Positions 18,170-53,473 of a DNA stretch of 64,000 nucleotides are shown here, one piece after another; the stretch's first letter is position 1, and every line of letters begins with the position of its first letter. Below the pieces are notes generated by a model that saw nothing but the letters and a program-made list of their open reading frames with translations, searched no databases and was not told where the DNA came from. Position numbers and translations under genes: made by a program. The stretch is from Watersipora subatra (lineage: Eukaryota; Bryozoa; Gymnolaemata; Cheilostomatida; Watersiporidae): contig NC_088717.1 of assembly GCF_963576615.1 (NCBI RefSeq), positions 37,142,802 through 37,206,801 of the forward strand. Direction: 5' to 3'.

Positions 18170-21100
18170 TCAGTCCTCTTTCTTCACTTTACGCTTTCCT
18201 TTTCTGTTGTTTTTGTTCATTCCTTGGAGAGTCGCAGCAGTACGTCTGTCAGCTTTCGTGATTCGACTAAAATCCAATGTGTCGAGCTGCGGTAGCATTG
18301 CCATCACCATGTACTTGTATCCCTAAAATAGTTACCATTGTAAGTTATGTCTACATTTCTAAAATATGTGGTGCTTATGTGAGACTCTATTTTCTGAAAA
18401 TATTAAAAACTGAATATTGTTTTTGTTTTACCCAACTATAATTACTATTATTTATATCATTCCTATTATTATATTATCACTATTATTAGGCCAATGGCCA
18501 TGCTCTTTCTGCAACGCTACCACACTGCAATATATTCGCTTAGAATTTCTTACCCACATTAAGCTAGCATTGTTGCATTGAAACTGGCTAGGTAAGGGGT
18601 CTACCAGTTGACAGACTTCTATCAATATAGTTCTGTTTTAAGCTGCAAATAGTGAATTCATTATGCCTGCCGGCAGCAACATTTTAGCTCTGCTATATAT
18701 AATGGGAGCTATGTTATTAATTTAAAAGTTAAAAAGAATTCTTTTTTTACAACTGTTTTTTCTCTTACCTTGTCGTTCTCAATAGGGTTTCCATGTAAAG
18801 ATAATTTCTTTAGAGAAGAAATCTTTGCAAGCTTTTCGATTTCACCCATGTCGGTGAACTGGTTTCCATGGAGATAAAGTATCTGTAGATTCGGAAAGTG
18901 TAGCAATATCTAGAAAAATTAATAGATAAATAAATGCGAAAATAAAGAATAATAACATAGTAAACAGTGAGGAGTACGTCATAACCTTACTTTAGCCTAA
19001 AACCAAACTTTCAGTCTGTATTTAGTCTGCCATAAGTACATATATTGCAATCATTTAGTCACCCATGTAAGGTTATGTAACCTACATGTAACTATGTAAC
19101 TTTAAGAGTTTTGGGTTTTTGTGTAGGTCATTAACTCAGCTCATAATTTATGTGGTTTGTATTCAGTTTCTATAAAAAGTACAAATAAATTTAAACTGTT
19201 CAGTCTGTCGACACGTTACAATTTATTATTAAGTGTATTCCAAGCATCATATTTTCAATAAAGGTAATTCCTTAAAATACTTTCTGTTGTACAATCCAAC
19301 AAATTTATTCTGATTCATGAGAGTAGTAGTCATAGTCACGGATATGCGATAAAAGTTGTTAAAGCAAATACTTTACTGCAAGGCTATAGTACTTATTACT
19401 TACATCATCAACTTTGGTAAGTTCGTTGAAGGACAAATCTATCCAAGCAATGTTGTCACAGTCCTCAAAGAGTTGCTCAGCAACTACCTTGAGCTCGCTG
19501 ACTTGAGGCAAGCAGTTGTTATTTAGCTGTAAAAGAAAACCACCATTATTGTTGTTTATGGCCGGTATGAGATTACACCACACAACTTGGTAACTGGATA
19601 GCTGAGAACCACCAGCCATTGTTGTCAGTTTAATCGCTGTTTTAGTCAGATAACTCAGAATTTTAATGCAAATAGTGACACTTTTAAAGAAAGTATGAAA
19701 TTAAATATGCAAGTTCTGTGTTTTATTCATTAAAATAATCCATTTCTATAATTTTCTGTTCAAGTTTGTAGATTATAAAAAAGAAATACATGGCAGTATA
19801 CAACAAAAAGCGACAGCCCTTCGTTGCAAAAAATATAAGCCTGTAGACCAGTGGTTCCCAACTAGTGGTCCATGGACCCCTAGAGGTCCACAGGAAGTTT
19901 TGAGGGTGCCCACAGGCTGGTGCCAGTATTGGTTTTTCTAGTTAGATATTTACAGCTATTTCTGTCATAGTGGTTGGATCAATGATATAAAACCCTAAAA
20001 GGATAGGCAACGGCTATCATATGAGCGGGATTTAATAATCGAAGTCTGTTGGGATTGTGCTAGCTTGGGTTTCGGGGCTAATGCAATTCCCGCGGGGTGG
20101 TCGCGTTGTCCTGTTAGGTTTTTGAGTCAATACTTTTATCACCTATGTGCGTCAATCGCTGGATAGTACCTGATTTTCGGTTAGTAGTACAAAACAACAT
20201 AACCTGTAACCAGCAAACACGTAATTCTCTCTTTCCGTCTTCAATATCTGCGATATACTAAGATCCATGGAAAATAAAACATTTCAACTTACTTATTTTG
20301 ATCAATTTTGAGATTTTTAGGGGTCTTATATATGCTTAAATTTAAATATAATTTACCCGAAATCACCTGAAAAACGGCCTTTTTTCCCTAGTTTTTAATT
20401 AATATTTTTCCACCTCTAATATAAATTGTTTGACCCGACCAATAAGATGGGACAGCAGGCAAAGCTGTGTAGTTTTCATACTCAAAATCTAAATGTAAGA
20501 CCAAACTTGGGTCATTTCACAGTGGCGACTATTAATATCATGAATGCTTGTTAATGGCAGCCGAATGATCATAATTGTGACAATATTTGGCAACTATATT
20601 TATTTGACAACAAAATGAAACTAGCAGATCGGTAAAATAACCAAAGATGTTTATGAAGATAAAACCATTGAAGAATTTTGGCCTTCCATGATTCATCCAT
20701 ATCCACGAACAACCAAACACTCCCTTCGAGATCTGCTCCCAATTGTGGCTACATACTTATACGAGTCCGCTTTCTCCTCCACGGTTGTTCTCAAATCGAA
20801 ACGACAAAATCGACTGGGGCTTGAAGACGACATGCGATGTGCTTTGTCAACCATTTACCAAAAGATTAAGAATTTGGGGAAAAATAAGAAGTACAATCCA
20901 TCCCACTAACAAACTGACAACTGAAAATTAACAGTCAAAGCAATTTAGTATAGCACTGCTTTATATAAGTAAATAAATAGAAACATGTCAAATCGATTGA
21001 CTCTTATATTATTCTAATTCATTATGTACGCCAATTTACAATGCATTGTTATAAACACCATCTATTATGATGTTTATAAAGGGGTCCATGACTTTTAGAT

Positions 21101-27800: not shown

Positions 27801-30800
27801 CTTGCCAGTTAAAGATTTCATTGTTGACTTTTCATTGTTGTTTCTGTTCTGCCACTGTATACAGTCGGATTATTTCGGAGGTTTCATCTTTGCCTTGTTC
27901 CTCGTCGCCTTGTTCCTGTTGTGGCGCTGTATATGGTCTGGGTATTTCAGAGTTATCTTCACCTTGTTCCTGTTCTGGTGTTGTATATGGTCTGGGTATT
28001 TCAGAGTTATCTTCACCTTGTTCCTGTTCTGGCGCTGTATATGGTCTGGGTATTTCAGAGTATTTATCTTTACCTTGTTCCTCTTCATCTTGTTCCTGAT
28101 CACCTTGTTCCTGTTCTGGAGCTGTATATGGCCTGGGTATTTCAGAGTTATCTTTACCTTGTTCTTGTTCTGGCATGTATATGGTCTGGATATTTCAAAG
28201 TTTTTATTTACGCCTTGTTCATGTTCTCCTTGTCTAGGACAGATTAAGTTGCCTCTTCTTTTGTTAGAAGACACAAAGTATGGATCAATGTTCGCCAAAG
28301 GTTTGCCTTACTGTAGATGAAGTTTGCAGCATTTGTAAAATCTGGTTATTTACCTTTGCTTTATCATTATTCGTGTGACTATCTATTCCATCTGTTGACT
28401 AAAGGCTGCGGTAGCAATTCGATCACTCTCTCCATTTTACAGCTGTCATTGAGGAATCCTGATCCTGGCATAGTTTCCATACGTGCACAGATGTGTCTCA
28501 CATAACCAGTTTCATCAGCTGTTATCCGGACATCTCCTTCACCTTCGAGCATGTAGCATAGTCTCATTATGAAAGCATCTGAAATAATTAGTGGCTTGCC
28601 AGATAGATATAGATATAGAAAGCTTGAGTTAGCCATTATAGATACATGAAAGCTTGAGTTAACTATGATAGATACATGAAAGCTTGAGTTAACTATGATA
28701 GATATATGAAAACTTGAGTTAACTATGATAGATATATGAAAACTTGAGTTAACTATGATAGATATATGAAAACTTGAGTTAACTATGATAGATATATGAA
28801 AGCTTGAGTTAACTATGATAGATACATGAAAACTTGAGTTAACTATGATAGATATATGAAAACTTGAGTTAACTATGATAGATACATGAAAGCTTGAGTT
28901 AACTATGATAGATATATGAAAACTTGAGTTAACTATGATAGATATATGAAAGCTTGAGTTAACTATGATAGATATATGAAAACTTGAGTTAACTATGATA
29001 GATATATGAAAACTTGAGTTAACTATGATAGATATATGAAAACTTGAGTTAACTATGATAGATATATGAAAGCTTGAGTTAACTATGATAGATACATGAA
29101 AGCTTGAGTTAACTATGATAGATACATGAAAACTTGAGTTAACTATGATAGATATATGAAAGCTTGAGTTAACTATGATAGATATATGAAAACTTGATTT
29201 TACCATGATGGATATACTAGCTAAATGCCCAGCATTGAACAAATAAAAAAATTTCTGTACAGAAAATTTATTTGTGTTTAACATATACAATATTTACCAT
29301 TCTAACTTTTAAATGAAGGGATTTGTTTATTGGAAAGCTCGAGGCATAGCTAAAACAGATTGTTGGAAAACATTTCTTACTTCTTATGCTACACATTCGT
29401 TTGAGACTTAAAACAGCTTACAAACAGTGTCAAAACATGTGGTTGACATTTGTTAAGTTTCTTTACCCAATGAATTTGAGTAACTTAAGCTATTCTAAAT
29501 ATGTATAATAAAGTGTTCATCATTTGTGTTTTTTTATTTATATATTTTATTTTTTATATTTAGCCAGCATGTTTGCGCTGGCTGACACTTACGTTTGTCA
29601 TTTCTACCCCACCTATGCTAAAGACAAGAGGTGCACTGCCCATTTTTTAGGATGGTCAGTCCCCAGTAGTGTATCAACCACCAAAATTTTATACAATGTG
29701 TAATATCTAAAGAATTTGATTGTTGTACACAAAGTTTATTATGTGAAAATGAAAATACAAGTCCTCCAAAACTTCATATCATCAGTGAAGTGTTTTGTGC
29801 AGTTGAAATAAATTAAGGGAAAAATAAAGCGCGAGTAAAAGTTTTTGAATGTGAAATAATTAACCAGTAATGGCTAGATAAAATCTGTTCTACTACAATG
29901 ATTACTATTAAAATGATTTGCTACTGAAACATTTAATGCAAACAGAGAAAATAAAACAAAAATCATGAATATGTAGAATAAATAATAACAAGGAGTACAT
30001 GAAAGTGTGTGTATAAAAAAGGTTACTATTCCAGAAGCTATCCATCAAAATTTTGGACATAACGATAATTGTACACACGTAAAAATGAGATATCAGAATT
30101 AAATACACTGCTGAAGCATGCGGGGATAAACAATTTTCTTTGTCTGACCGAATGGAGACAGAATGTATAAGTCATTTTTACTGCTTACCCGAGATAACGC
30201 AACATACAACTGTCCTTGTGAAAAGCAAGGTGGTAATAGGTGAATTTCAGTTTTTCAGTGATTAACCTTGGGATTTGTTGATAGTCAATGCAAATGAAAG
30301 TCGAACAAGAAATTGAAGGCGTTTAAATTGAAACGGAAAAGTAAAACAAACGCAAAAAGCAATAAAAAGTACATACTTAGCTTGTATCTTGCAATCACAG
30401 CTCGAATAAATTTAAAAGAGAAAATAATTTTATCTTACAAAAAGTGGTAATACAACTCTGATATGCCGAACCAATGCAATAACCATTATTTTAATAACCA
30501 ATAGTTTCTCCGCGGTTAATGATTTTAACCAATTGCTATTCACTGGATACACACGAGACAAAAATACAAACACTTAATTTTATATATATACATACTAGGC
30601 GAATGCCCAGCGTTTCACGGGTAATAAAGAATGTATCATTCTAACTTTTAAATGAAGGCATTTGTATATTTCTGTGTGTGTCCAGCCAGTACATAATTCA
30701 AATATTCGAATTCTTGAGGCATAGCTAAAACAGATTATTAAAAAACATTTCTTATTTCTTTATGCTAGACATTTGTTCAAGATTTAAACAACTTATAAAC

Positions 30801-33800
30801 ACTGGCAGGTAACGTAGTTGCCATTGACTAAGTTTTTTTTACTAGTCTAAATCTTTATTATAAGAGCCGTGCCTGTCCTTACATCAGGGTATTAAGAAAA
30901 AAAGTTGCAACTCACCAGAATCAAATTCGACAGATGTGAAACCTAGCGCACTACCATAGGTTGGAATATTTGTACTTGAAATCGTTATGGGTCATGATCT
31001 CTAACGCAATTGTGATCTTCCAAGCGTGTTAGAATCATTCTAGTGTGCTAATTATTCTATATTATCCCAAGTAGGATGTGTGGCATAGTAGATAGCACGC
31101 TTGTCTGCAAAACTGTTGTTTCCGAATTCAACGTCAGTGTGAATCGATTGTTTTGTACTTTTGTGTCAGATAACATTATCCCTATAATTGGACATAGGAC
31201 AAACCAACAAACAATAAGATTTATATACATGGATAGATGAAAGCTTGAATTAACTATTATAGATGTATGAGAGCTTCAGTTCACCATTAGACCTATGCAA
31301 ATAGGTATATGAAAACTAGAGTTTGATGTTCAAATGACTCAATAATATTTTTCAATATGAAATACAAGAGCTGTGCTCTTTGGTTTTATTTGAATATTAA
31401 TTCAAGTTTTAGTTACAATTTGTGAATCTTTTCCCATGAGCTTGTGTGCCCAAGAGTTCATGGAATGTCAGGCTTACTCAATACACGCTAATCTGTTGTA
31501 TTTTTATGTATTTATGTTTACTGTTTTGATTGGCTGACTGAATCATCATATATGTTCTCTTTCCCTCTTGTTTAACGCTGAGAATGTCTTTACTCATTAT
31601 ATTAGTAATGAGCTGATCTGAGCGGGTCTGACGTGAAACTCTGTTTGCCTAGGCAGATAGTTTGGTCTGGTATAATAAGACGACTCCAATCAGCAGAACC
31701 CTACATGAGAAATATCTACTTCCTTTTCTTGCCAGAGTCTCACCAGCTCATCTGAGGTGAGTCACTACCATATGTTTATTTCTTACTGTAATTTGGTGAT
31801 ATCCCACGGTTCAAGTTTTGACAACAACTGTAGGTACAAATGAGCAAAATGAAGTAGCTGATTCATTACCTGATATGGTAAATTTTATTCACAATTGACT
31901 ATTGACTTCAGATATTTTTGTCGGCTTATGAATAAACAGTAGATTTTTACAGACTGCAGAAACATTTTTTCTGAACTTGAAAGGAATAACATGCACATCT
32001 AAGATTAACACCATCTCCCTATCATATTTAGACTTATAGCATATTGTGCTTTTCTATTGTTATTTATAGTATTACGCTTGGCAGTTCTGTGCCTCGTGAG
32101 AGACCGTAAGGCATATGCGTATATGCCTTACGCCTATGCCAACATTGGTATATGCGTACTTAATTAGGCAAGGCGACCGAATGTTGTAGGGTAGCGCGCT
32201 TGCCTATGAATCTGATACCTCTGGTGCGATTCCTGTGCCGGGCAATCTTTTATTCCTAATGTTCTTAGCATGGCCTCAGACAAACAGACAGACAGTTTTT
32301 ATAATAGCAAGGATTAAATAAATCTGAAATATAAAATGTTGTCTTTTCAAAAAAGACTTGAATAGGCGATTTGCTACATTTTAACATCGCCACTACTATT
32401 TTGTAATGTATGACACTTATAGCTGTTTTATTGAGTCGTATTCATTTAACTAAAAAACTCTGGTTTTTAAAAAGTGTCTTTGCAGTTTTATAGATAATTA
32501 CATTGTATCTGATCTTATGATCAGTATATTGCTGTTCTTCTGCTGCTAGAATTTCTATGCTGCTCATGCTTCCCGTAGCACTTTTCATTGTATCCCAATA
32601 AATAAGCGGATAATTTTTTAGTACGATATTATTTAGGCGTTTACTTCAGCCCGTAGCTTTTGCATCTGCCGAACAACGGCCATTGTTTATTATTGTATAG
32701 TGTTATATACATAGTATGCTATTATAGTATAGGAAAACACCTGTCATGGCTGACAATGCTGAAGAGATAAAACTAAGTCGCAGGTCTTGAACAGAGCTTG
32801 ACAGAGCTTAAGTTACTTGAGATTTACAAGCTCATTTATTTTGTTATCTCAATGTTGATGAACTTGCCAGACATCTGTGCTTTCGGAGAGTACTACTTAA
32901 CACTCCATATCTTTTAAATCTCGCCTTAGAATGCTACTGTATATATTCTACATCTCACTTTAGAATGCTACTGCATATATTCTACAACTCACTATAGAAT
33001 GCTACTGTATATATTCTACAACTCACTTTAGAATGCTACTGTACATATTCTACATCTCGCTTTAGAATGCTACTGTATATATTCTACAACTCACTTTAGA
33101 ATGTTACTGTACATATTCTACATCTCACTTTAGAATGCTACTGTATATATTTTACATCTCACTTTAGAATGCGACTGTATATATTCTACATCTCACTTTA
33201 GAATTCTACTGTATATATTCTACATCTCGCTTTAGAATGCTACTGTATATCTTCTACATCTCGCTTTAGAATGCTACTGTATATCTTCTACATCTCACTT
33301 TAGAATGCTGTTGTATACATTCTATTATGTTTGTGTTTTTTTCTGTAACTTTATAGTGTTACAATCATCTTTAAGTATTCAATATTCCAGATTAAAACAC
33401 TGGAATAAATGACTAAGTAAAAAGATTACTGACTGTCCATCTTTACCATTGAGATTCAGTTTCAGTACAGTTTTGTACCAGTTCCTTAGAGTAAACAAAC
33501 ACTAAGGAGTTATCTACTCTACAAATGGATAACTCTGTTGGGATGATTATTGCAGAAATGCGGATAGTGCGGTTGACAGGCTAAGATTGTTCAAGTCACC
33601 CGCTGAAGAAGATTTGATGAGAAAGTGTGGAGATTTGACTGCTGAGATGTTTATGGAAACAATGCGCTTCTCTGTGGATAATGTGAGTTGGTTGTTTGAT
33701 TGCGTTGTCAATGTGGCCGCTTCGAATTCTTGAGTTCTCTACTGACTGTTTGTCATAACATCAGCGATGTCACTGCTCATTTGATCGGCCAGGGCTGAAT

Positions 33801-36800: not shown

Positions 36801-39800
36801 CCTGTCATAGCTGGTGAGTACAGCTATGTTGTTAAAGGGTAAATTGTGATGCTTTACTCACTGCCTCCATTGTAAATGAGTTGTTACTTGAATTAACCGA
36901 TCTGATTATCTGAATAAGTTACCTACATTTCTCCTACTCATTTTACAAACATGACAGCTTGTCTCTCTAACAACTCATGTCTATCGACTTTATTTACTAA
37001 AAACCTTTTTAGACACAGTTTTTACCTGATCGTTTAAATAACTTGACCTTATTCACTAAAAACGTTTTATGTGCTGTTTAGACACACTTTTTTCTTGATG
37101 CTTCAAATAATGCATATGTTATACATTCTGTAGGATCTACCCTGCCTGTCTACATTGCTTTAGCTGCTGGTTTCTGGCATACGAATATCAGAAATCACGT
37201 ATTTAATTTCTGGTGTTCTGTCGTGCTCTTTTAGGCGGTTCGAATGCCCTGGCTGTTCACTATATAAGAAATGACCGACACATAGACAAAGACTCTATGG
37301 TGCTAGTCGACTGTGGCTGTGACCTACATGGTTATGTCTCTGATGTGACTCGTACCTGGCCTGTCAGTGGTTTGTAGTCTTTATTATTCCTCTCTATAGA
37401 AGTGATCGTTAACTCTTGCTAACCTCTCATATTCCATCACCATAATTTTGATGTTTCTGCTAGTTTTTCACATTTTGTAAAACATTGACTAGACATTCTT
37501 CTTAAAACACCATATTTCACTGTTGGAGGTATTTTTGTGTATTCAACAGATACTATGTCATTTAAGGGTTACAGAAAATATAATCTGCACGGTATACTAT
37601 GAAGGTTGCATATCTGATCTATATGATAACATATGAGAGTTGCTGTGTATCTGATTAGTAACATATCGTATGAAGGCTGTATTGTATCTATATACATAAG
37701 TACATGTATATGAAGACTGGAATGTATTTAATTTGTACGATGTCATACGAGCGCTGCGGTGTATCTAATATTTATGATATCATACAACAGTTGTGATGTA
37801 TCTGTTATGAGTGATATTGTACAAGAGCTGTAGTGTATCATACTGTACTGTATCGCTGTAGTGTGGGTACGAGGGCTGTGGTGTATCTAAATTGTCCAAT
37901 ATTATGTGCAAGCTGCAGTGTATCTTATCTGTATGATACTATATGTAAGCTGCAGGGTACCTAATAATCTTTTGTAGCACATATGCTAGCAATGGTGCAA
38001 TGAAATACAATATCTGTCAGGTTACATATGTGGCTCTTCGTGTGCTTTTATTTCTGTTGATTTCACTCGGCTCACAAGGCTGTCAAGACATACAAAGCTA
38101 AGCCTGGTTTATAAGTCTTTTAAAAAAGTTTATTTTTATTATGAACATGTTAAAGAAAAGAACTGTGAGTTTGTTTGTCAATCTGTAGCACTAAGGCTAG
38201 TTTTTTGACACAATAGTATCAATTACGTGTTGTAAATGCCCATGTTACGGCCAGGGGAAGTAGAGGTTTGAATGTGCACAAGTCATTACAGACAAATGCT
38301 ACGCTGTGGTTAAAGTTGCCCTTTACTCGCCATCTCGAGTGTCTGCGTGTTGTAGGAAAGTTTAGCTCAGCACAAAAGGAGATGTATGAAGCTGTGGAAG
38401 AGGTATACAAAAGCTGCCTTCATTTTTGCCAACCCGGAGTTTACTCTCTCAATGATATTTTCTCTGTGATGATGGCCCTCATCGGTCAGCAGCTTGAACG
38501 ACTCGGTATCGTCACAAGCTCCATATCAAATGATGAGCTCTCCAAGGTGATGCCTCATCAGAAGGTTCTTAACAGCTGCTTATTGCTGCTGGGTTTGTTT
38601 AGGTAGTTGTTCAAGCTTATTTAGTAGGTCCACAGATGGAAACTAACTTGTATGTAAATGCGGACACATGCCTTTCCTCAACACAACTAGACATGATCTA
38701 CTATCATTGCAAATCTAAACTTTTCAACCCTTGAAGATAAACTTACACAGAATTTTAAAAGATTTTTCCAGAATGTATCAGTATTTTTCTATTATTTGAG
38801 ATTGTTTTTGATGTTTGAGGTGATCTGACTGCCCGGATGTTTCAAGATTAAAATCAACAAAACGTGATTGCGGTTAAAACGCTCAGAACAAGCGAAAGTG
38901 TGATTATGACATCTTTAATAGTTGTAAATAGACCGGCAGAATGGAGACAGGTACCGCTGCAACTTGATCGCAGTAGCTGATGTTAATAACTAGGTAGGCA
39001 GACAGCCGCGCAACTAGTTATGTCTTTCACCACATCTTTTTCTTCTGAGCGTTTTAACCGCGATCAAGTTTTGTCGATATTAATCTCGAAACATCCTGGG
39101 AGTAAGATCGCCTCAAACATCAAAAACAATCTCAAATGGTAGAAAAATACCGATTCTTTTTGATAAAATCAATGAAAATATTGTGTAAGTTCATCTTTAA
39201 AACATGGTAAGTCTGTTATAGCGTCTCAAGTATGAATAGTGAAGTTATCTAATGGATATAAATCATTGTCTTTGTCTGTCATTCTGATCAATACTAGCTG
39301 GACCTTGCTGATCATTTTAAAAGCATGACTAACAAAAGACCAGTCAAGTCTCAACTGGTTTAGCATTTAAATACCTACGCGCGTTTATTTCTGCTTGTGA
39401 CAATTGTAGTCATGAGGAAACTTATCTATGTGATCATGTGATATACTTTTTACACAGTTATCATCTTTTCCGATCATCGCATTGATTATCCCTTTTGTTG
39501 TTTGTCATCTTATGCGCATGTCCCGTTTTTCATGGTAGTCACAGCAGACTAATGGCTAAGTTATGTTAATTGCAGTTAGTGCAGAAGATGTGTCCACACC
39601 ATGTCGGGCACTGGTTAGGAATGGATGTACATGACACACCTACAGTTTCGAGATCAATGAAGCTGCAACCTCACCAAGTTATATGCATTGAACCAGGTAA
39701 GAGTTTTGTTAGGTATGACGTATTACTTATATTATAAATAATTCTTTGGAATTATCAAGAGTTCTCTCAACACTCTAAGTATCAAGAAAATCGTAGTGTA

Positions 39801-41312: not shown

Positions 41313-44300
41313 TCAAGATGTCTTAGTTCCTTTTTCCTTGCCATTCTCCTTGCCATTCTCCTTGCCATTCTCCTTGCCATTCTCCTTGGTTGTTTTGGCC
41401 TTATTAGAGCGATTGTTTTTTGTTGAAGATTTTCTTGCTACACGTTTTAAAGATGGCGTTAAGGTCTTGGCCGAGTTTTGCATGTGAAACACTTTCACAG
41501 TTGGTGCCTTTAGGAATATTTCAGGGAGAGACTTAGGTTGTTTTTGATGTGGAATAGAGGCGGACAGAGAGGAAACTACTGGAGTTGTTGTTGCCGAAAT
41601 AGAGGCAGCAGGAATGGATGGTGTTGGTGAATTGAGTAGGTGGTTGGTGTCGATCATCTGGGCGGAGTGTTTGGAATGAGACTCTTGGATGCTATTAAAA
41701 TGCAGTTTTATAAAATGTCTCGTGGTATATGCAGCGATGCTTTGGAAAAAAGTTACCTTGCAAGCTAACCTGTAGAATAAATCAGTAAATTACAGCCTAG
41801 CAACTCTTGCTATAAGAAATTCGGCCAAGCATCATATCAGAAAAGATATTTCATTAGTTGAAATCTTAAAGCAAGTTGAACCCTACCATTAGTTATACAA
41901 GTTTTGGGGCAGATCTAAAGAAAATTATATTCAGCAAATAATTAAATATGCTGCAAAACTATTATTACTGGTATATGTAGTTGAATGGGTTACCTTGTTT
42001 CGCTGGCACTATAGGAGTCGATACTTCTCTTACTACGCATGGATATTGTCGGTTGGTGATCGTATGTGGACTTGTCCTCTTTCTGACTATGTATGGACTT
42101 GCTTTCCATGCTCGCTCTACTGAAACTGCCTGGTGGTTGCCGAGCAGAGGACGGGATGCTGCTGAGCCTGCAGAAGAAAGACATACCAGCATCATGGTTT
42201 ATTATATTGTCGTAAAATGGGCTCCATAGCATAGACATGACTTTCGCATCGTCGTCAACAGATGCGACATAAATTATCAAGATTATGTTATTAAGATTCG
42301 CAATACAGACCATAGCAAACATTGACACGAAACCATTAATTCTTCAACCTACACATAGAAGAGCCCCACTATTCACACTCTTAAGGTAAAAATTACTATC
42401 CAAAAACTCTAGGATTATCTCCTTAGAACCATTAGAACAACCATCTTTTGATGATTCATGATGAAATTTCTACAGGTTTCTCAAACCTTTTATTTACTAC
42501 ACTTTAAAGGTACTTTTTAATTACGTATAGTGTACATTTCAATGTAGTACATATATTTATTTATTTGCATATACATGTACGTGTATTTTTTATATTTTAT
42601 AACACATGTAAAATGACATTTCTCTATTGATCTTGCTCTTAATACTTTTTAATACCTTTTAATATATTTAAATTTTATTGTTATCATTGTTCCATGTGGA
42701 GCTCAATATCACACATACTTCATTGTTCAGTGTGGAGCTCAATATCACACATACTTCATTGTTCAGTGTAGAGCTCAGTATCACACATACTTCATTGTTC
42801 AGTGTGGAGCTCAATATCACACATACTTCATTGTTCAGTGTGGAGCTCAATATCACACATACTTCATTGTTCCGTGTGGAGCTCAATATCACACATACTT
42901 CATTGTTCCGTGTGGAGCTCAATATCACACATACTTCATTGTTCCGTGTGGAGCTCAATATCACACATACTTCATTGTTCCGTGTGGAGCTCAATATCAC
43001 ACGTACTTCATTGTTCAGTGTGGAGCTCAATATCACACATACTTCATTGTTCCGTGTGGAGCTCAATATCACACATACTTCATTGTTCAGCAAGCTCTCC
43101 ATACAAATTGTTCAAATCGTGTTCAAATCATAACCTTGCATGACATATTGACTTTCCATTTTAAGCTGTATTTTCTCAAGCCTTAAATACTGCAAAAGAC
43201 ATACACACATTCTCGACACACTATGCTCCTAGTATTGCTGTAAAACTTAGCATTACCTTGCTGACAGGGCGCTAGACTTCTGGCTGAAGGCAGACCTGGT
43301 CATTGCAATATTTAACGGATGGTAAACCGAAGACTGCATTCTCTGGATCCTAAAATACGTAAATTTGTAATAAGTTAAAAAAATTGTTGCAAAAATGCCT
43401 AGCAGAATGCTCGACACGCATCAATTACTATCGAGCACATAACTCCAAAAGCCTATTCAATACACTGAAAACTTCCTGATACTGCAGGTAAGCACTGCAA
43501 CAATGCTAAAATTTCAACGCGTAAAATTCGACATTTTTAATAGCTTTACAAGCCAATTTCTGAATGTACTTTCAGATCATACGCGAAAACAAACAATGGA
43601 GAGCGAATAACTCCAAATCAATTTTTAATTCAAATAACTCAAGTACTTACCCATCATATGCCAACCTATTTTCAGTGTTTGTTTGCACAAGCTGACCTTG
43701 GGCATTTACGTCATCACCAGCAGGCCCATTAGCCATCTTGTACGCAAGAGCCACAGATAATAAGGTCACGAGAAATAGGGTGAACAACAATACAACGTAC
43801 CTAAAAAATAGTTGGCATGATTGTACTAGGGCATTTGAGAGTATCACTATTACTAGATAATGAATTATAATATGGTCAATATAATTTATATCACTACATT
43901 GGGATAACTTATATGGATTAGTAGTTAGAAAACAAGTTTGGCTATCACAAACTGTATGGGCATTAAGGTGAGACATGTGGCATTACCTTTCCATCATAAA
44001 GAAAGACCTTCAATACAAGTGAATGAGCAACAAAATATCCAACCATTGTTTAAATAAGAGGTAGCTGGTCAAACAAACAGTGAAATGCTGTGTAAATGCA
44101 AAAGAACTAAAATAAAACAAAAAGAACAAATATAGTTTGCAGAAAATTAGCCATTGCTGAAGTTAACAAGAGTTGGTGTCATTGGTAGAGCATCTGGATT
44201 CCAAAAGAGCCGAGTCAAAAAACTGCCCGGAGTCTAGATTTCCTTTACATCATAATGAAATTATTTTCACAAAATTATTTTTGGATAGATCTTATATTTG

Positions 44301-47300
44301 ACAGAGGTAGCCGCTATCTAGAACTACATAAAACTGCTACTTGTAAACACTTATTCAGGTGACTTCAACTATCTCTACCATTAATTAATCACTATCCTAT
44401 TGTTTCATTATTGCTGGAAACAGTATGAAGGTGAGGTCTGCAAAGTTGGCGTACCGATGGAGTTTATACATAGCAATAAAGAGTATCTATACATACAGCA
44501 TATAAACTTCGGGCAAACTGTAAAACCAGTCAAACATACTGGATTGAAGTGTCAAAAACAACCAGGTTCATGAACTAAATATCACGATTGATATGATTAT
44601 TAGGAATAGACATCAAAGGAGAGCTTACACACTAATCCTAGAATGTTCTTACATGAAATGTAGGTAAATTGTACGCTACAGGGCGGAATGTATATGCGAA
44701 GGCAAGATGTACAAAGCTGGACAGATGGTAGATAATAGAGAGAATCGTGCATGCATAAATACATGTAGAGCTAATATACATTCACAAGCATTGAGTGTAC
44801 ATATACGCCTCAGTGTAAAGGATGTGCAAATAGCAAACCATAGTATATATACATGTACATGCCAAGAATGAGTTAACACACCCACCAGTAGTGAGTACAT
44901 GTACATTGAAAGATTGAGCTTACATGCATCACAAATAGTTAGTGCACATGTACACATAAGGGAAGAACTAACAGACTTGCATAAGTAGCGAGTGTACATA
45001 TATATAGCAAGTGTGCACACAAGTACATACAAGTGTACTTATATGTAGCAAGTGCACATAATGCCTGTAGCAACTGTACATATATGTAGCGAGTGTACAT
45101 TCATGTAACAACTGTACATATACCTATATGTGAATACCGAGGCAGAACTAAAATACATACACAAGTAGAGAGTATACATGTACTTACCAAGGCAGGGTAT
45201 GTTCCGGTACTTACCAAGACAGGGTATGTTCTGGTACTTACCAAGGCAGGCTATGTTCTGGTACTTACCAAGGCAGGATATGTTCTGGTACTTACTAAGG
45301 CAGGCTATGTTCTGCTACTTACCAAGGCAGGGTATGTTCTGGTACTTACCAAAGCAGGGTATGCTCTGGTACTTACCAAGGCAGGATATGTTCTGGTACT
45401 TACTAAGGCAGGGTATGTTCTGGTACTTACCAAGGCAGGCTAGATTCTGGTACTTACCAAGACAGGCTATGTTTTGGTACTTACCAAGGCAGGCTAGGTT
45501 CTGGTACTTACCAAGGCAGGCTAGGTTCTGGTACTTACCAAGGCAGGCTAGGTTCTGGTACTGCAAGCAAGCTGATAGGAACATTCTGCAAATCTGGTTT
45601 GCAGTCAGCCACTTTGTCAGCAGAGCAACCTAAAATATTATGGTAGAGAACTAAGGAAAATAAATTTAATAAACATTTAAAACTGTCTTACTCTAGTTCA
45701 GTTTCTCAGACAACTTTTACCAAAGAGTACAGCCAGAACAATTACTGATGATGCAGTAGGAACACACTCTTGCTTTGTATCACAACTATCACAGGCTTTC
45801 TTACAAATTTTGTTTAGAAGAGTAAAACCTTATGCTTAAATACCAATGTGTTTCGGTTTGGTTCAACTGTATAAAAAGTGGTGTCATTGCGAAAGCGCTG
45901 GAAAAAATTGGTTTGGCACAAAGCCAAAGCATCATAGATCCTGTTCCCATTGGTGTGAATAATTTTGCTCTTTTCAAACATTTCTAATTTTCAAGCTTTA
46001 AACAACTGGCAATTGTTCAGTTTTTTCAGCAGTATCTTTATTTTTAATAGTGGTGAGTTAACTTAAGAAAATAATTTCAAACTGAGCAGTCACAATCATT
46101 ACTATAATACCGAAGTGTGTAACTGTCTTCATTACATTTGTTTGTTTGGTATAAAATTTCAAATAGAACTGCCGTTGCTTGAAATAGTGTAGTTTCAGTT
46201 TGCAGTAACAGTTTCAATTCGCAAAATTGTAGCTTCAGTTTGTAATAGTGTAGTTTCATTTTGCAATAGTGTAGTTTCAGTTTATGATACAGTAGCTTCA
46301 GTTGCACAAAATAGTTTCAGTTCATGGTAGAGTAGTTAAAATTTACACTAGAGTGGGTTCAATTCACTCTACAGCAGTTTCAGTTTGCACTGAACTAGTT
46401 TCGGCTCATGCTACCATAGTTTCAGCTTGCACTAAAGTGGTTTCGGTTCTTGTTGCAGGAGTTTCAGTTTTCACTACAGTGGTTTCAGCTCATGCATTGC
46501 TAACGTACATGTAATATACATACCACACATGTAATATATATACCACACATGTACATGTGTGATAGTTTCATTTCGCAATAGTGTAGTTTCAGTTTATGAT
46601 ATAGTATTTTTAGTTGCACAAACTAGTTTCACTTTATGGTAGAGTAGTTACAGTTTACATTAGAGTGGTTTCAATTCATTCTACAGCAGCTTTAGTTTGC
46701 AGTAAACTAGTTTCGGTTCATGCTACCATAGTTTCAGTTTGCTATAAAGTGGTTTCGGTTCTTGTTGAAGGAGTTTCTGTTTTCACTAGAGTGGTTTCAG
46801 CTCATGCAATACTTACGCACATATAATATCTACTAGTATAAACAGTAAACTTTCAAGTCTAAACTGTGACCTACAGTGTCCATTGATGCAGAATTCTGTA
46901 GTTAGACAGAGTTGTCTGCCACCGCAGAGTTCCTTCTTCGTCTCACAGTAGTCACCCATGAACTGATCTGTGCAGCGACATTGCTCAAAAAAGAGGAAGC
47001 AGTCTCCTCCGTTGTGGCAAAAGTGAGGTACGAAGTTGTTGGAGCCGCACTGTACAGGTTCTGTGACATGAGAACATTTGAAAATTGTAGTTGCAGTCCT
47101 TTACTGGTTGTAATGTGGATGTACATTATGCTGAACTGTTACCTTTATCCAGCAAAGTTCCATTACCTTCATCAATATTAGCATGAATTATGTTATTCTA
47201 TGTTAGACTAGGAGGATTCCTAATTAATTAGGTTGTGAGTTTGGTTTTTGTATAATAGGGTTGACTGCATCAATGCAAATGAAGCAATAACTGGTGACTT

Positions 47301-50300
47301 TATAAGCCAAATTTGTAATGCAAAGGATTATTTCTACAGCTAGAAAAGTTACCATCTTTCTTAAGATCAGTACCTTGGCATCATAGCATCATAATCTAAG
47401 ATTGTCATGTGGCCACTAAACAACACCATAGCAACTCTATCGAATGAGTGGTAGGTGGCTGTGATATCATAGTAAAATTACTATGTCCTTTTTGAAAAGG
47501 TAAAATTACTAACAAAACAATGAAACTTGGATTATGGCCTGAGAACAGAAAATATTCATACATAGCAAATACACTGAAAAATTCTGTTCAAAAATTTTGA
47601 TGATTCCAGTTTGTCATTTGCAGAGACAGAAATAATCAGATATCAAGTTACTGTAGGCTACTTACCAATCTGACAGAGAGACCCACTATAGTGACTGGTA
47701 CATAGGCATTTCTCTCCTTCCAACTCACCACAAATAGAGAACTGGCTACAAATTGTGGATGAGCAGACCTTGTGGTGGCAATGTTCTCCGGTGTAACCTC
47801 CATAACATGTGCAGGCACCATCTCTCGAGCAGTCTCCCTGATAGCAGGGCAAATGCGTCTTACGGCATATCTTCATCTCACAATTGAGCCCTGCGTTGTC
47901 ATATATATGCATGTGAAGATAACTTCCCAAAATTATATTACAGCAATGATGAAGAGCTGGTTGAAGCTGCCCAACCAAGTGTTTACAAGTAGGAAACTTG
48001 CCTTTTGGTAATAACTAACTCTGTTAAATATGAGGGTTATTCAATAAATAAAAATAAGTTTATTAGTTTATTATAGTGGAAATCTAAATTTCGGACAGTC
48101 TTGTGACCCTGCTCTGCTAGAATCTAGCTGCTTTACCAACTTTTCTAACGTTTCAGCAATAGTGAGTAGTTATAGTGTGATAATATATTTGTAGCATAGA
48201 TATATAATACGAAAATAGCACACATGAATGCATATGTCGCAGGCTTGGTTAGTCCATCACCTTGGTGGAATTGTACTCTATACATAATCCTTTTGATATT
48301 CCTGGCGGTCCCAAGAGCTTTATTCATCTACTCCCTTAGCTAGGAGTGGACTACGCGTCTGGCTTAGCCTGCTGGCTCATACGGCTGGCCTGTCCGATTG
48401 GCTTTCACCCGGCTGGCCTGTCCGATTGGCTTTCACCCAGCTGGCCTGTCCGATTGGCTTTCACCGTGAAAGGTCAAATAGTAGCAACACGCCTAATTTT
48501 TAACAATTATAATCTTTCAAGAGCTTCAATATCTTCATATCTATACGGTAGCATCTACTAACCTTTGAAGTTACTTATACATTCTTGGAGACTAATTCAA
48601 AGTGGCTGCTTTCTTGAGTCAAATTTACTTAAACTGTTAATGAGACAGGAGCGTCAAAATTTTTGTGAAGTGAAGGTGTTAGGCCGAGTGAAATTTCCAG
48701 GAAAATTAATGCTCAATATAAAGGAAACTGTAAGTTAAAGTAGTCTTCAAATGAACTGACAGTTTTAGAGATGGCCTTGGTTGAGAATAAGCTTAGGTCA
48801 AGCAGACCCAAAGAGGCAGCCAGATCGAAGAAATAGAGCCAGAAATAAACTTGTCAGCGCAGATGGAGGCTAAAATCTAAAGAAACTGCTGAATCATGAA
48901 GCATCTCAATTTAAATGGTGCACTTCATTTTGCATGTCAACCTTGGATTCTCAAAAGCGAGCTGCAGGCAGGAGCTAAAAATCTGTCTCAAAAACAACGA
49001 TAAACATTTGAAAATGTATAAAAATAATCCGGAAAAAAGAAAATTTTTATTTTCAACAGAATTGGAACTTGGGTAGCACACTGTGCAGAGCAGAAGCAGT
49101 AGCCCCCAGCAACTTCAGTCACAAAAATTCAAAGGGCAGAAGTGTCATAATAGTAAGGTTTGCAGTTTGTCCAGACAGACATCCCATTACAACAAATTCT
49201 CTAGAGGACAGTGGTACTGACAACTAAATCATGAAACACATTAAGAACAAGAGATGAGGCATGGAATTTCGCGGAGTGATTTTTCGCCAAAACAACTGCC
49301 AGCTGTGCAGCACAAACCAACAATATCTTGGGGTGAGAAGAGCTGCCCCATCTCCCTTACACATTTGACTTAGACCCTTTAGACTACCACTTCTGTTGAA
49401 CTCCAAAACCTCTTAAAAGAGAACTTCAAATGAAGAGTGAAAACGAGGTCAAAGCCACTATGAGTGAACAGCTTTGAAAGTCAATCTAAGGATTTCTTTG
49501 CTGACTGAATACAAAATAATACTGCATCAATGGGTAGCACTCTCAGGGATTTTTTGAACAAAATTGTGTCAATTACAACTTGAGAAGCAACCAAATTATC
49601 TTGCTTATAGAATTTAATAATATGTGAGATTTTGATATGTTTTTGCAACACAAGTGGAAGAGTGTTTAATGGTGACTTTGTATCACAGATAATAGAGTAG
49701 CTTTTATCTGTGATACAAATAAAAGGCCTCTGAGCATGAAAAAGGAAAAATGTATTAAAAATTTGCATGGCATCTTCGCCTGACATCAAAACACCGAGTT
49801 TGTTTTCTGTTCATGTAGCAAAAATATTTTCATTGAATTAATTAAATGCATAGATTATGTTTTAATCTGATACATGTGCCTACTGTCACCATAGGATTGT
49901 TCTTATTAAATAGCCATAATACACCAGCAAAGATTGAACCGACTTGGCTGCCTGGCACTCTACCATCTGCACCGATCAACCACTTTGCTGCATTTCAGAA
50001 TAATTGTGCACATATTGATTACACCTGATGATCTCTCACAGTGCACTGGACTGCCAGCTTACTAGTTGATGATAAACTATGATCAAAGCATTATTTGCAC
50101 ATTCTAAATAGCGAGGTCGCATCATCGTTACTGGGATATAAATCAGGCACTAAATTAGCATGGAGGCTCTTTCTGTATCGCTCCAAGTTAAAGGGCTACA
50201 TATACAATCGCTTCTAATCTTCTTCTACATATACAATCGCTTCTAATCGTCTTCTACATATACAATCGCTTCTAATCGTCTTCTACATATACAATCGCTT

Positions 50301-53300
50301 CTAATCGTCTTCCTGCTTTGATAATTTAGTTTACTAGTAGAGGAGTTGGCTCACATTTTTAGTCGAGCTGCACCCTATTGGTCAAATTGGAACACAACTC
50401 GTCTTTCGACATCGTATAATCACATGTTTTTGTAACATAAAATTTTCATTTGACATAATGCATTTCATGCTCATGTATCTGGGCCTTTAATGTTGATATG
50501 CTACTTTTGTGTCACTCATGACGACAGAGAGTGTTGATACAGTGACTTTTGTCACAGATAATGGTAGAATTTGAATATGGTAACTTTTTGACACAGATAA
50601 TGGCAGAGAGTGTTCATATAGTTACTACTACAGACGTCATATGAACTATATGACATCGTTGGGACAGGTCAGGCCATTGCATTCAATTTCATCACACGAT
50701 ATGGTAGTAACTATAACAATTTGTTTCTAAGAGATAACTATAATAATGCTTTTCTAAGAGAGTTTTGAATATGACATGACCCAAGTATGTAGTGTTCTAT
50801 GTGTCTGCACAGATCCCTAAATAGATGGAAACTCACATTTATCCTCACACACGCAGCTCAAAAACTGTTCCGAGGTTGAGTAGGCATTACAAGTTTAAAG
50901 TTTTCTTTCTTTTAAATCAAGTTGTCGGCTCGTACATTGTTCTCAAGGAAGCTCTTATAAAGTGTTTTCGGTATATGGGAAACTCTTACCAAAGAATCCA
51001 CTCATGCAGACGCAGCTTCCGAGGCGGCAATAACCATCATTGAGACACGTCAGACCATTGCATTCAATTTCATCACACGACGCGGATGTATAGCCACTGT
51101 TACACTTACATATTCCTTGTTCACAGTTTCCATGAACGCATCTATGAAAATAGATCAGCTTGTAATATACCAAAAAACCTGTCGACATAATAATTAAGGG
51201 ATAACTCTTTGACTCTTGATGTAATCAATTGACCTAGGTGATACATCTATTGAAGATTAAAAACAACTCTGACAGCTGTGAAAGCTTCTACTGATATGAA
51301 ATCATTATAGCCTACGGTTTTTGTTCGTAAGTTGATAGCTTTATTCATCCCCATGCGACATGTAGAATACACGTTAGCTCACATAGAAAATGATACTTGA
51401 GTAAACAGGTTGCACTAAACCTGAAACTAGTTTTTATGTTCGTAAGGCCATTATTTACATTGGAAATGTAACTATGTTTTCTACTATTAACACAGTGCTT
51501 TTTCCAGTAGCAATGTGTGAAATATCATACCTGCCTGATATTGAGCAAATCCGATACTCGCACCGGTTGCCATGGTATCCAGGGTAACACAGACAACCAA
51601 GTTTAACGTCGCAAATACCATATGCGCACATTCCTACAATACTATATCAGTGTGTATATTCACTAACTATGTCAAACTTGTGAGAGGTAATATTGGAGTA
51701 GCCAGTGAAAAATGATGACAATGAAAGCAGAGATGAAGGTTGCGATGCACCCGCTAAAAAACATCCTAAGGAGTGTAAATCTTTGTGCCATTTGGCGAAT
51801 AAGCTAGTTAATTTATGTTTGTTTCTTTATGCGTAGAATTGCAAAGGATAAAAACTTGCAACTGTATAAAAACTCATTTTGATTTTATGTAAAACTATTT
51901 TAAACACAGCATTGTCAAAATAAAATATTTGTGCGAGTCAAATCTACTGATGATCAACTCGTATCTGTAAGCTAGACTGTGAACCTATGCATTGACCAGA
52001 GTCATGAGCAAGGATTAATTGTGAACTTTTATAGTGAGAATTATCAGTCTATTGTAAGATGACTTATTTGGTTAGAGCATCAAAAGTAAATAATTCAGTA
52101 CATAAATGCTACAAGCAGACGACTCTTACCTCCAAAGCTCTCGCTGCAATACCTATATTCACAGTTGACACCGGTGAACTCCTGGTGACATACGCATTGT
52201 TTGGGGGCATGGCAGTCTGATCCAGGGCTATAGCATGGCATTATGTATCCTCCATTTCTGTAAAAGAAACATAGACTAAAAATCTGTGCTCTGCATCAGG
52301 TAAAACTTTCCAGGACTAATGTGCATTCATGTACTTTAAAAAAGTTGGAGTTGTGTTTCCTATAAATACCACATAAAGTGGAAAAGCTATATATATGGAG
52401 TTATCTTCGTCTAAACTATTATAAGACGCATCTCTATGACAAACTACCTATTTCTTCAAGATGCTGTATTAACCTGGATAGCAGAAACATGAATCATTTA
52501 ACTATTTTACTATCATGCATACCTACACTCAGTGTTTGTATCAAGGGCAGTAGTCAGGTCATCTCGTGTTATACAGTATGGTACAGGCCTTCTGTTCAAG
52601 GCTTTGTGCAGCAAGACACAAGTCTGCTCTGTAGGGCATGCCAAATCATCACATGTCTTTGCCGTACCTGAATTGTGAACAGTGTGACATTATGGTAGTA
52701 ACACGTGAGCAATTTTGTATTAAATAATTCCTAGAGTTGAATTTTTCTTAAAGAATTAGGACTGAGAAGCATGCCAAAACAATAGTTAAAAACACATGTT
52801 TTTGAGCCAGTATACTTTATCAGAAAAGGCATTGGTCAAGGCTCAAAGCTCATTATAAATTCTGGCAGCCTTTTATAACAAAATAGCTTATTGCTTTTTG
52901 CTCATTATTTTGTTGATTACCAATAAAATTATTCTATTATATTTATTATTATTTTATTGATAGCCAATAAAATGTTATACATATATACAACGCTCAACTT
53001 AGAACATTTAATTGTTGAGCAGATAGTTTGACAAGTTAAATATATTTACCTACTTCAAGATCTAAATAGGTATGTTTTGATATTCTAAAAACCTCCCATC
53101 ATGTCTTTCGCCGAGTAGGATACAAAAGAGGTTAATTCTATTTAAATGAAAATTTATTTGCATTTGGGGGAGAATTGGGATACACAATTATTCTTTTTTA
53201 TTCTACAGGATAAATTTCCAACACTTCAAACAGAAAAAACTTGAATGCATAGTTCCAGAAGATTTTCACATCCTTCACATTTCCTTACTCAAGGGAAAAT

Positions 53301-53473
53301 GAATTAATGAAGGGAAATACTTGCATCAGTTCTATACGCGTGATTAGAATATTTAGTTTTAAACAATACTATACAGTGCTGGACCAAATGAGTCAAATAT
53401 AAAGTATTAGTAAGTACTTACTATACAGTCGAGGTGGGATGAGAACCAACAGCCAGAGTACACGCGCTGCCAT
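41313..53473 (-). CDS. EGF-repeat single-pass type I membrane protein, complete, family not recognised
   Basis: Exons in gene order: 53473-53422, 52667-52523, 52257-52130, 51633-51531, 51141-50990, 47890-47666, 47060-46875, 45629-45539, 43800-43651, 43349-43257, 42167-41994, 41691-41313. All phases join to 1878 bases, 625 residues. Residues 1-18 are a signal peptide (ARVLWLLVLI). Residues 22-51 form a Cys-containing unit (CDDLACPTEQTC...PYC). About seven EGF-like repeats follow, e.g. CVHGNCEQGICKCNSGYTS, CLNDGYCRLGSCVCMSGFFG, CYQGDCSRDGACTCYGGYTG and CHNGGDCFLFFEQCRC. A short stalk follows. The membrane helix is 362-381 (YVVLLFTLFLVTLLSVALAY). The cytoplasmic tail of about 240 residues is Ser/Lys-rich and ends with ENGK repeats. 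It is presumably an adhesion or signalling surface protein; no named orthologue is claimed. Confidence 0.85.
41323..41390 (-). repeat. 12-bp coding repeat (ENGK) in the cytoplasmic tail
   Basis: Four to five units of CCTTGCCATTCT on the + strand encode KENGKENGKENGKEK near the C-terminus of the EGF-repeat protein. The length is a multiple of three, so it can vary without a frame change. Confidence 0.85.
42685..43090. repeat. 36-bp tandem repeat, about 11 copies
   Basis: The unit is CATTGTTCAGTGTGGAGCTC followed by AATATCACACATACTT, with very low divergence, in the intron between exons 10 and 11 of the EGF-repeat gene. Frames stay open on both strands because 36 is a multiple of three; they are not genes. 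Confidence 0.95.
44165..44235 (+). repeat. tRNA-like SINE fragment
   Basis: Box A-like TGTCATTGGTAGAGCATCTG is followed by a weak box B (GAGTCAAAAA). It lies in intron 8 of the EGF-repeat gene. Confidence 0.3.
44780..45180. repeat. Degenerate TGTACAT-rich repeats
   Basis: Repeated GTAGCRAGTGTACATATA-like motifs at irregular spacing of about 30 bp, running into the 27-bp array on its right. Confidence 0.5.
45181..45558 (-). repeat. 27-bp minisatellite of splice donors, 14 units
   Basis: Each - strand unit reads approximately CCAGAACCTAGCCTGCCTTG then GTAAGTA. The first unit in gene sense overlaps the end of exon 8, whose donor is at 45538-45533. All fourteen units keep GTAAGT; twelve have CTTG and two have CTTA before it. 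Units nearest the exon are the most alike. Confidence 0.93.
45533..45541 (-). promoter_or_regulatory. Exon 8 donor with built-in stop codon (TGG-TAA)
   Basis: Exon 8 ends CCT-TG and the donor is GTAAGT. Unspliced, the frame reads CCT TGG TAA. The same phase recurs in every 27-bp unit, so only use of this first donor allows the transmembrane exon to be read. Confidence 0.8.
46257..46828. repeat. Tandem duplication of about 310 bp built of shorter GTTTCAG repeats
   Basis: 46257-46514 and about 46570-46828 align along their length (for example GGTTTCGGTTCTTGTTG and GTGGTTTCAGCTCATGCA in both). Each half is made of degenerate 15-30 bp AGTTTCAGTTTGC units, which also extend left to about 46160. 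It lies in intron 7 of the EGF-repeat gene. Confidence 0.8.
47061..47665. other. EGF-repeat gene intron 6, nothing recognised
   Basis: AT-rich sequence without open frames of interest or recognised repeats. Confidence 0.5.
48382..48464. repeat. 28-bp tandem repeat, 3 copies
   Basis: The unit is GGCTGGCCTGTCCGATTGGC followed by TTTCACCC. It is unusually GC-rich for this window. Confidence 0.9.
49677..49719. repeat. Perfect hairpin, 16-bp arms
   Basis: TTTGTATCACAGATAA and its exact reverse complement with an 11-base spacer. The related phrase TCACAGATAATGG recurs at about 50552 and 50593. Confidence 0.85.
49890..49985 (-). repeat. tRNA-like SINE fragment
   Basis: The - strand reads GGTGCAGATGGTAGAGTGCC and then GGTTCAATCTTTG, resembling box A and box B. 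It is not a functional tRNA as far as I can fold it. Confidence 0.35.
50193..50312. repeat. 29-bp tandem repeat, 4 copies
   Basis: The unit is TCTTCTACATATACAATCGC followed by TTCTAATCG, nearly identical between copies. Confidence 0.9.
50661..50700 (-). pseudogene. Partial copy of exon 5 of the EGF-repeat gene
   Basis: ACAGGTCAGGCCATTGCATT and CAATTTCATCACACGA match exon 5 at about 51042-51080 with two or three changes. It lies in the same orientation about 380 bp away, within the adjoining intron. Too short to encode a full EGF unit. Confidence 0.7.
51634..52129. other. EGF-repeat gene intron 3, nothing recognised
   Basis: AT-rich, no repeats or conserved open frames seen. Confidence 0.5.
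52668..53421. other. EGF-repeat gene intron 1, nothing recognised
   Basis: AT-rich, with a duplicated AATAAAATTATTCTATTATA-like stretch near 52920-52970. Confidence 0.5.

Follow-up and report, generated by a model that had tools for sequence, protein, structure and literature searches.

Does a minisatellite that repeats a splice donor 14 times across the end of an exon switch a cell-surface protein between a membrane-bound and a secreted form, or is it an accident of repeat growth? The question is raised by a predicted EGF-repeat gene, in which exon 8 ends inside an array of 27-bp units and the next exon encodes the membrane anchor. The original prediction for this locus read the array as a switch.

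Minisatellites that carry splice donors at the edge of an exon are known, for example from the human genes IFI6 and ABCA7, and the present array belongs to this kind. The array of IFI6 (6-16) has a repeat length of 12 bp; its multiple splice donors were reportedly described by Turri, Cuin and Porter in 1995, and the 130-aa form of the protein is made from the first donor. According to the part of a later article available, two downstream units of the IFI6 minisatellite serve as donors, three mRNA species result and the 130-aa form is predominant (PMC4526556). The VNTR in intron 18 of human ABCA7 consists of 25-bp units, and its first two bases form the donor of exon 18, as given in the available sections of the report (Acta Neuropathol. 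2018, PMC5954066). For human tandem repeats at exon-intron boundaries, 27 intron modifications are mentioned in the accessible portion of another study; there, exon-edge minisatellites alter splicing and this is shown as variation between paralogs, whereas the present case is a single sequence (PMC2812944). In Caenorhabditis elegans, the intronic minisatellite CeRep25B is over-represented near regions of alternative splicing; the excerpt available describes regulatory motifs (PMC4039745), while repeated donors at an exon edge are found here. In the literature on minisatellite and VNTR splicing we met no donor-bearing minisatellite outside human genes, and the phrase "duplicated splice donor" gave no match.

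Results

A predicted EGF-repeat membrane protein gene

The window, i.e. the whole 64-kb stretch of DNA analysed, contains on its minus strand a gene that is probably an animal cell-surface protein gene (Table 1). The predicted protein begins with a hydrophobic stretch, followed by EGF repeats, a stalk, a single transmembrane helix and a long tail. Pfam matched the 625-aa model to EGF_TEN (PF25024; E 1.2e-20, 74.6 bits against a cut-off of 65), which identifies teneurin-type EGF repeats, and to EGF_2 (E 3.5e-6). At E 0.001 or better, 14 distinct PDB sequences matched the model, and these relatives include teneurin-2, teneurin-3, Delta-like 1 and WIF1. Teneurins carry NHL and YD repeats in an extensive extracellular part. 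Neither repeat was found in the 625-aa model, for which Pfam at E up to 1 returned three EGF families only. The EGF array is alike (EGF_TEN), whereas the protein predicted here is short and single-pass, with a different tail and no further teneurin domain. The claim that the exon after the array encodes the transmembrane helix held, since without exon 9 no 19-residue window at hydropathy 1.6 or above is left in the whole remaining protein.

Near the C-terminus of the 625-aa protein, a perfect 12-bp coding repeat of 4.5 copies (41335-41388) encodes ENGK repeats. In intron 5, a stretch at about 50655-50700 (minus strand), noticed by eye around CGTGTGATGAAATTGAATGCAATGG, closely resembles part of exon 5 and is apparently the remnant of a partial exon duplication. 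Elsewhere in the window, an M24 peptidase-like stretch on the plus strand (38217-38603; Pfam E 4.5e-4, 20.5 bits against a cut-off of 23) may be part of a gene that runs towards the EGF gene, and a weak leucine-rich-repeat match on the minus strand (19362-19700; Pfam E 0.0019) lies below cut-off. Ten further open frames of the window gave no Pfam match above cut-off, and Rfam and tRNA scans of the 64 kb gave no matches.

Table 1. Features of the predicted gene and of the donor array; positions are those of the window
Feature	Position	Strand	Remarks
Predicted 12-exon EGF-repeat membrane-protein gene	coding span 41313..53473	-	exon-by-exon rebuild, 625 aa
Exon 7, final EGF-type exon	46875..47060	-	donor at 46874 (ACT/GTAGGT) weak
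Rival exon 7 donor TGC/GTAAGTAT, phase 2	46811..46816	-	would splice in frame to exon 9, omitting exon 8
Predicted exon 8, 91 nt, phase 1 in, 2 out	45539..45629	-	juxtamembrane stalk (CSADKVADCKPDLQNVPISLLAVPEPSLPW)
27-bp minisatellite, 14 units, spanning the exon 8/intron 8 boundary	45180..45561	-	TRF and direct reading
First donor GTAAGT	45533..45538	-	its TAA (45537-45535) is an in-frame stop if unspliced
Thirteen further GTAAGT donors, one per 27 bp	45182..45511	-	those of units 6 (45403) and 10 (45295) weakened
Intron 8, 1738 nt, containing units 2-14 and the final 4 bases of unit 1	43801..45538	-	no AATAAA/ATTAAA
Exon 9, 150 nt, phase 2 at both ends, transmembrane helix	43651..43800	-	exon model and hydropathy

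Fourteen donors across the end of predicted exon 8

TRF reports a 27-bp unit in 14.2 copies with 91% matches (45180-45562). Read directly, 14 units fill 45561-45184, the next four bases, GTAC, start another unit, and the same four bases stand at each side of the array. The original prediction had every unit keep GTAAGT and exon 8 end within the array. TRF and the hexamer positions bear this out: GTAAGT is kept in 14 of 14 units on the minus strand at a spacing of 27 bp (45538, 45511 and so on to 45187), and the whole minus strand of the window has 33 GTAAGT, these 14 included. The first 23 of the 27 bases of unit 1 are exonic in the model, so that the array straddles the exon edge. Given the predicted exon 8, it is a multiple-donor minisatellite, i.e. 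an array lying over the donor of an exon with a consensus donor in each unit.

In the frame of the model, exon 8 reads ...SLP-TGG-TAA at the first donor, as had been proposed. The unit is nine codons long, therefore the in-frame TAA recurs in every unit and all 13 downstream donors give one and the same product. The observation of 14 donors, their frame and a built-in stop is confirmed, with exon 8 itself a predicted exon. Scored with a weight matrix of human-type frequencies, which may not match the preferences of this species, 12 of the 14 donors reach the same 5.04 bits, and those of units 6 and 10, which have A at -1 (TTA/GTAAGT), reach 1.70 bits. Sequence strength thus does not favour the first donor.

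When the 34 TRF rows of the window were merged by hand into 23 arrays (both strands), two arrays besides the 27-bp one were found to hold at least five donor-like sites at 2.5 bits or more. Both are on the minus strand, one with 34-bp units and eight such sites (32907-33324), the other with 54/72-bp units and five (27838-28227). The highest copy number among the TRF rows is that of a 13-bp unit repeated 55 times (5375-6093).

Evidence for exon 8

Exon 8 is the least secure part of the gene model. The exon is open in the required frame, its phases match those of its neighbours on both sides, and it has an AG acceptor and a TTG/GTAAGT donor. With 11 of 16 pyrimidines, compared with 7-12 in the other acceptors, the acceptor is not unusually weak. 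The GC content of exon 8 is 0.495; the other exons have 44-54% and the 11 introns 0.29-0.38. The codon score of the exon is +2.4 bits; of 1324 overlapping open intron windows of 29 codons, 1.4% do as well or better. Taken alone, the part unique to exon 8 is less clear and scores 0.46 bits, equalled or exceeded by 6.1% of 2085 windows, and its GC content is equalled by 5.3% of 1914 intron stretches. These codon scores come from a model of low power, since it was trained on 586 codons of the same gene model and gave negative values for exons 1, 2, 9 and 12 when these were left out.

Composition and codon use thus speak for the exon 8 of the original prediction, whereas the weak donor of exon 7 with its phase-2 competitors speaks against it. 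If there were no exon 8, exon 7 would end at a phase-2 donor (46816 or 46870) and join exon 9, and the array would be unused intron. The phase-1 donor at 46874, which is needed for exon 8, scores 0.19 bits and matches U1 at 5 of 11 positions; the one at 46816 is similar in score (0.37 bits) and has eight consecutive U1 matches, and from both phase-2 donors the frame reads through into the membrane helix. However, the donor at 46870 scores -2.71 bits, and the extension of exon 7 to 46816 has a GC content of 0.31 and scores -12.7 bits in codon use, values that compare poorly with those of exon 8. We therefore consider a gene without exon 8 unlikely, although it is the alternative to be taken most seriously, and exon 8 itself likely to be real.

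The codon across the exon 7/8 junction would encode Cys and give ...CINGHCC..., a familiar pattern. Cysteine parity was rejected as an argument for exon 8: after the last EGF repeat there are four cysteines without the exon and six with it, an even number either way. An alternative acceptor 21 nt upstream (45630-45650, minus strand) is in frame, would add seven residues and would replace one cysteine of the pair.

Predicted products and fate of the messages

An exon-by-exon rebuild reproduced the 625 and 361 residues of the original prediction: in the 12-exon model, splicing at the first donor yields 625 aa, and read-through into intron 8 yields 361 aa. In messages spliced at a downstream donor, the stop of the 361-aa product lies 23 to 347 nt ahead of the exon 8/9 junction and 440-764 nt ahead of the last exon junction, and four junctions remain after it. 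As a general rule, from which this species may differ, a stop upstream of exon junctions leads to nonsense-mediated decay. By this rule, the downstream-donor messages are expected decay substrates, and in the model they look like such substrates rather than like messages for a secreted form. Intron 8 contains neither AATAAA nor ATTAAA and has two TATAAA variants only; the absence, noticed post hoc, is shared by 76 of 2492 overlapping windows of the same length. A stable message terminated within the intron is therefore not favoured.

These results bear on the proposal that downstream donors or retention of the intron yield a regulated, secreted 361-aa ectodomain in a ratio tuned by array length. 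In its favour, all 13 downstream donors and intron read-through alike run into the same in-frame stop, and 12 donors are equally strong. In the available part of the work on MIR137, VNTR length goes with the use of alternative donors, although those donors are located inside the sequence of the miRNA precursor; by analogy, this case speaks for tuning by length in general. Against the proposal stand the position of the stop, for which decay is expected, and the intron without a canonical poly(A) signal. Moreover, in the sections of the ABCA7 report at hand, the donor one unit downstream is used in 2 ± 1%, independent of VNTR length (PMC5954066). Of the proposal, the 361-aa product from all downstream donors stands, its secretion is weakened, and for a donor ratio set by length the known cases point in both directions. 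We regard a regulated secreted ectodomain of this kind as rather improbable.

On paper, a second product without the membrane helix exists besides the 361-aa one. Skipping of exon 9 would leave a 575-aa protein, in frame and with no early stop, and its message does not look like a decay substrate, unlike those for 361 aa. An effect on the membrane-bound versus soluble form is thus possible by a route that was absent from the original prediction, and a longer array might promote it as in ABCA7. In the portions of that report available, skipping of the next exon, exon 19, rises with VNTR length, whereas unit retention does not (PMC5954066). In this skipping, the extremes of combined diploid length differ 3.2-fold in lymphoblastoid lines, and the two alleles of one patient differ 4.1-fold (same source). 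However, the cause suggested by the ABCA7 authors is splicing-factor binding motifs within the repeat unit, as stated in the text at hand, and the unit here differs; the alleles compared there (315 to 9711 bp; PMC5954066) are mostly far longer than the 378 bp found here. In addition, the splice sites of exon 9 score as ordinary, and 5 of the 10 internal exons of the gene have equal phase at both ends, so that the symmetry of exon 9 alone proves nothing. We hold length-driven skipping of exon 9 to be very unlikely, and the broader claim that copy number sets the ratio of membrane to soluble receptor mainly in this way, so that individuals differ in soluble dose, has a slim chance.

It may also be asked whether U1 bound along the array would aid recognition of exon 8 and silence cryptic poly(A) sites. 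Inclusion of exon 8 is required for the frame if exon 7 ends at 46874, where skipping leads to a stop after 341 aa; however, intron 8 offers no AATAAA or ATTAAA to be silenced, and the acceptor of exon 8 is not unusually weak. We give this helper function little credence. Finally, a coding repeat on the plus strand, where a frame of 154 residues (45169-45633) is open through the array, can be practically dismissed, as its Pfam match is sub-threshold (18.3 bits against a cut-off of 25) and a 27-bp unit keeps any stop-free frame open, so that such a frame arises automatically.

Origin and placement of the array

Minisatellites can be born by slippage between short direct repeats. Because both edges of the array are GTAC, it probably arose through slippage from one GTAC tetranucleotide to another 27 bp away. 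The edges, together with the identity of units 2 and 3 to unit 1, point to the end of the exon as the source and to recent copying. Compared by eye, units 1-3 are identical and units 6-7 are similar to units 10-11, a pattern suggestive of recent expansion next to the exon and of block-wise copying; the three identical units at the exon end are a hint of recent change in the array.

The constancy of GTAAGT is nearly explained by copying alone. In 17 of the 27 columns of the unit the base is invariant, therefore an unvarying motif of six columns is unremarkable. All six GTAAGT columns are spared with P = 0.042 when the 10 variable columns are placed randomly among the 27, and with P = 0.063 when at least 11 substitutions are dropped randomly. 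For the seven columns of GTAAGTA, the two simple counts give P 0.022 and 0.037, which leaves some room for selection. The base at -1, relevant to donor strength, is altered in 2 of 14 units. With these values for the six columns and the changes at -1, selection on GTAAGT was rejected as unconvincing.

Nor does the placement require selection. Tandem arrays cover 7.6% of the window, 15.7% of the gene span and 17.8% of the introns of the gene. Random placement at a coverage of 7.6 to 15.7% would put 1.7 to 3.4 of the 22 internal exon edges of the EGF-repeat gene inside an array; a single one is found there.

RNA structure and donor choice

Structural masking of the downstream donors was considered and rejected, since the array RNA folds no better than its shuffles (z -0.51; 29 of 100 equal or surpass it) and the units are much alike in their unpaired fractions. 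In a 651-nt fold the mean unpaired fraction is 0.33 for unit 1 within a span of 0.23-0.34 over the 14 units; in 400-nt contexts, the accessibility of the unit 1 donor is 0.38, against 0.03-0.49 for the other donors of the gene. The donor 14-mer TTGGTAAGTACCAG (45182-45538, minus strand) is nearly self-complementary, and donors of different units can pair. Its self-duplex has -13.0 kcal/mol, a value reached by 4% of 2000 shuffles, and in the predicted fold donor-donor pairing amounts to 0.65-0.82 in 8 of the 14 units and to 0.07-0.46 in the other 6 (0.31 in unit 1). The donor of exon 9 (43650, minus strand), unpaired at 0.03, is predicted to be the least accessible among the 10 non-array donors folded.

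Work on other genes gives some guidance on how splice sites compete. In DOK7, as far as the available text goes, splicing prefers the intron-proximal donor of a competing pair, which is also the stronger one, and suppression of the upstream site is compromised when the intron-proximal sequence is placed upstream too. By such a rule of proximity, splicing might prefer a later donor of the array, leaving the membrane form in the minority. Another report, available in part, describes poor splicing of a pre-mRNA with two strong 3' splice sites, which by analogy hints that crowded splice sites can hinder splicing. The choice among several equal 5' sites is not settled in the parts available of the literature on U1/U2 occupancy.

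Discussion

We propose that the minisatellite originated astride the 3' boundary of exon 8 and thereby would have added 13 intronic copies of the exon's strong donor. The first donor would give rise to nearly all functional mRNA and thus to the 625-aa membrane protein, and the other donors would be mostly redundant U1-binding sites, i.e. bystanders. Slight use of the one or two donors that follow may produce stop-bearing messages, mostly lost to nonsense-mediated decay, so that a 361-aa soluble ectodomain would be present in traces at most. The array would then be an evolutionary accident with a mild cost to splicing and not a dedicated switch. Taken as a whole, this account of an accidental donor-copying array with a dominant first donor and a slight leak to decayed messages has, in our judgement, about an even chance of being right. 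The original prediction is partly supported: its description of the array stands, and its interpretation as a switch is weakened.

The two known systems nearest in architecture, IFI6 and ABCA7, suggest by analogy, as read from the text available, that most donor use is at or near the first donor. With IFI6 the present array shares, in what is accessible on that gene, the provision of several splice donors by a tandem array. The longer products of IFI6 are extended proteins, whereas downstream donors here lead to a stop. The array of ABCA7 is closer in this respect, going by the available parts of the report: a minisatellite abuts an exon, the next unit has a usable donor, and unit retention leads to a premature stop. 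In these same parts, the class of unit-retaining products is sensitive to nonsense-mediated decay, and messages with a premature stop increase with cycloheximide (PMC5954066). Judged from them, the two arrays also differ. That of ABCA7 is wholly intronic and opened by the donor, while here the first unit contributes 23 coding bases; its 25-bp unit shifts the frame, while the 27-bp unit keeps it but holds a TAA; and the exon that follows encodes part of a nucleotide-binding domain there and the membrane anchor here.

The same report, in the sections available, also shows that such arrays need not be mild. ABCA7 expression is lower with longer VNTRs, a drop that the authors do not, in those sections, attribute to decay, exon skipping increases, and alternative transcripts are common, jointly exceeding the canonical one in 90% of the samples from one brain area (PMC5954066).

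If the route through exon 9 were true, differences in array length would translate into differences in the dose of a soluble ligand or receptor between individuals. The array adds an apparent animal gene to a short list of donor-bearing minisatellites that were otherwise met, in the literature searched here, only in human genes. If its donors are used, 14 near-equivalent sites would be a natural experiment on how the spliceosome chooses among like sites, with a built-in readout of donor choice in the membrane form, the decayed message and the soluble form. If the extra donors are ignored, the locus would indicate that a first, exon-defining donor can beat many equal copies downstream.
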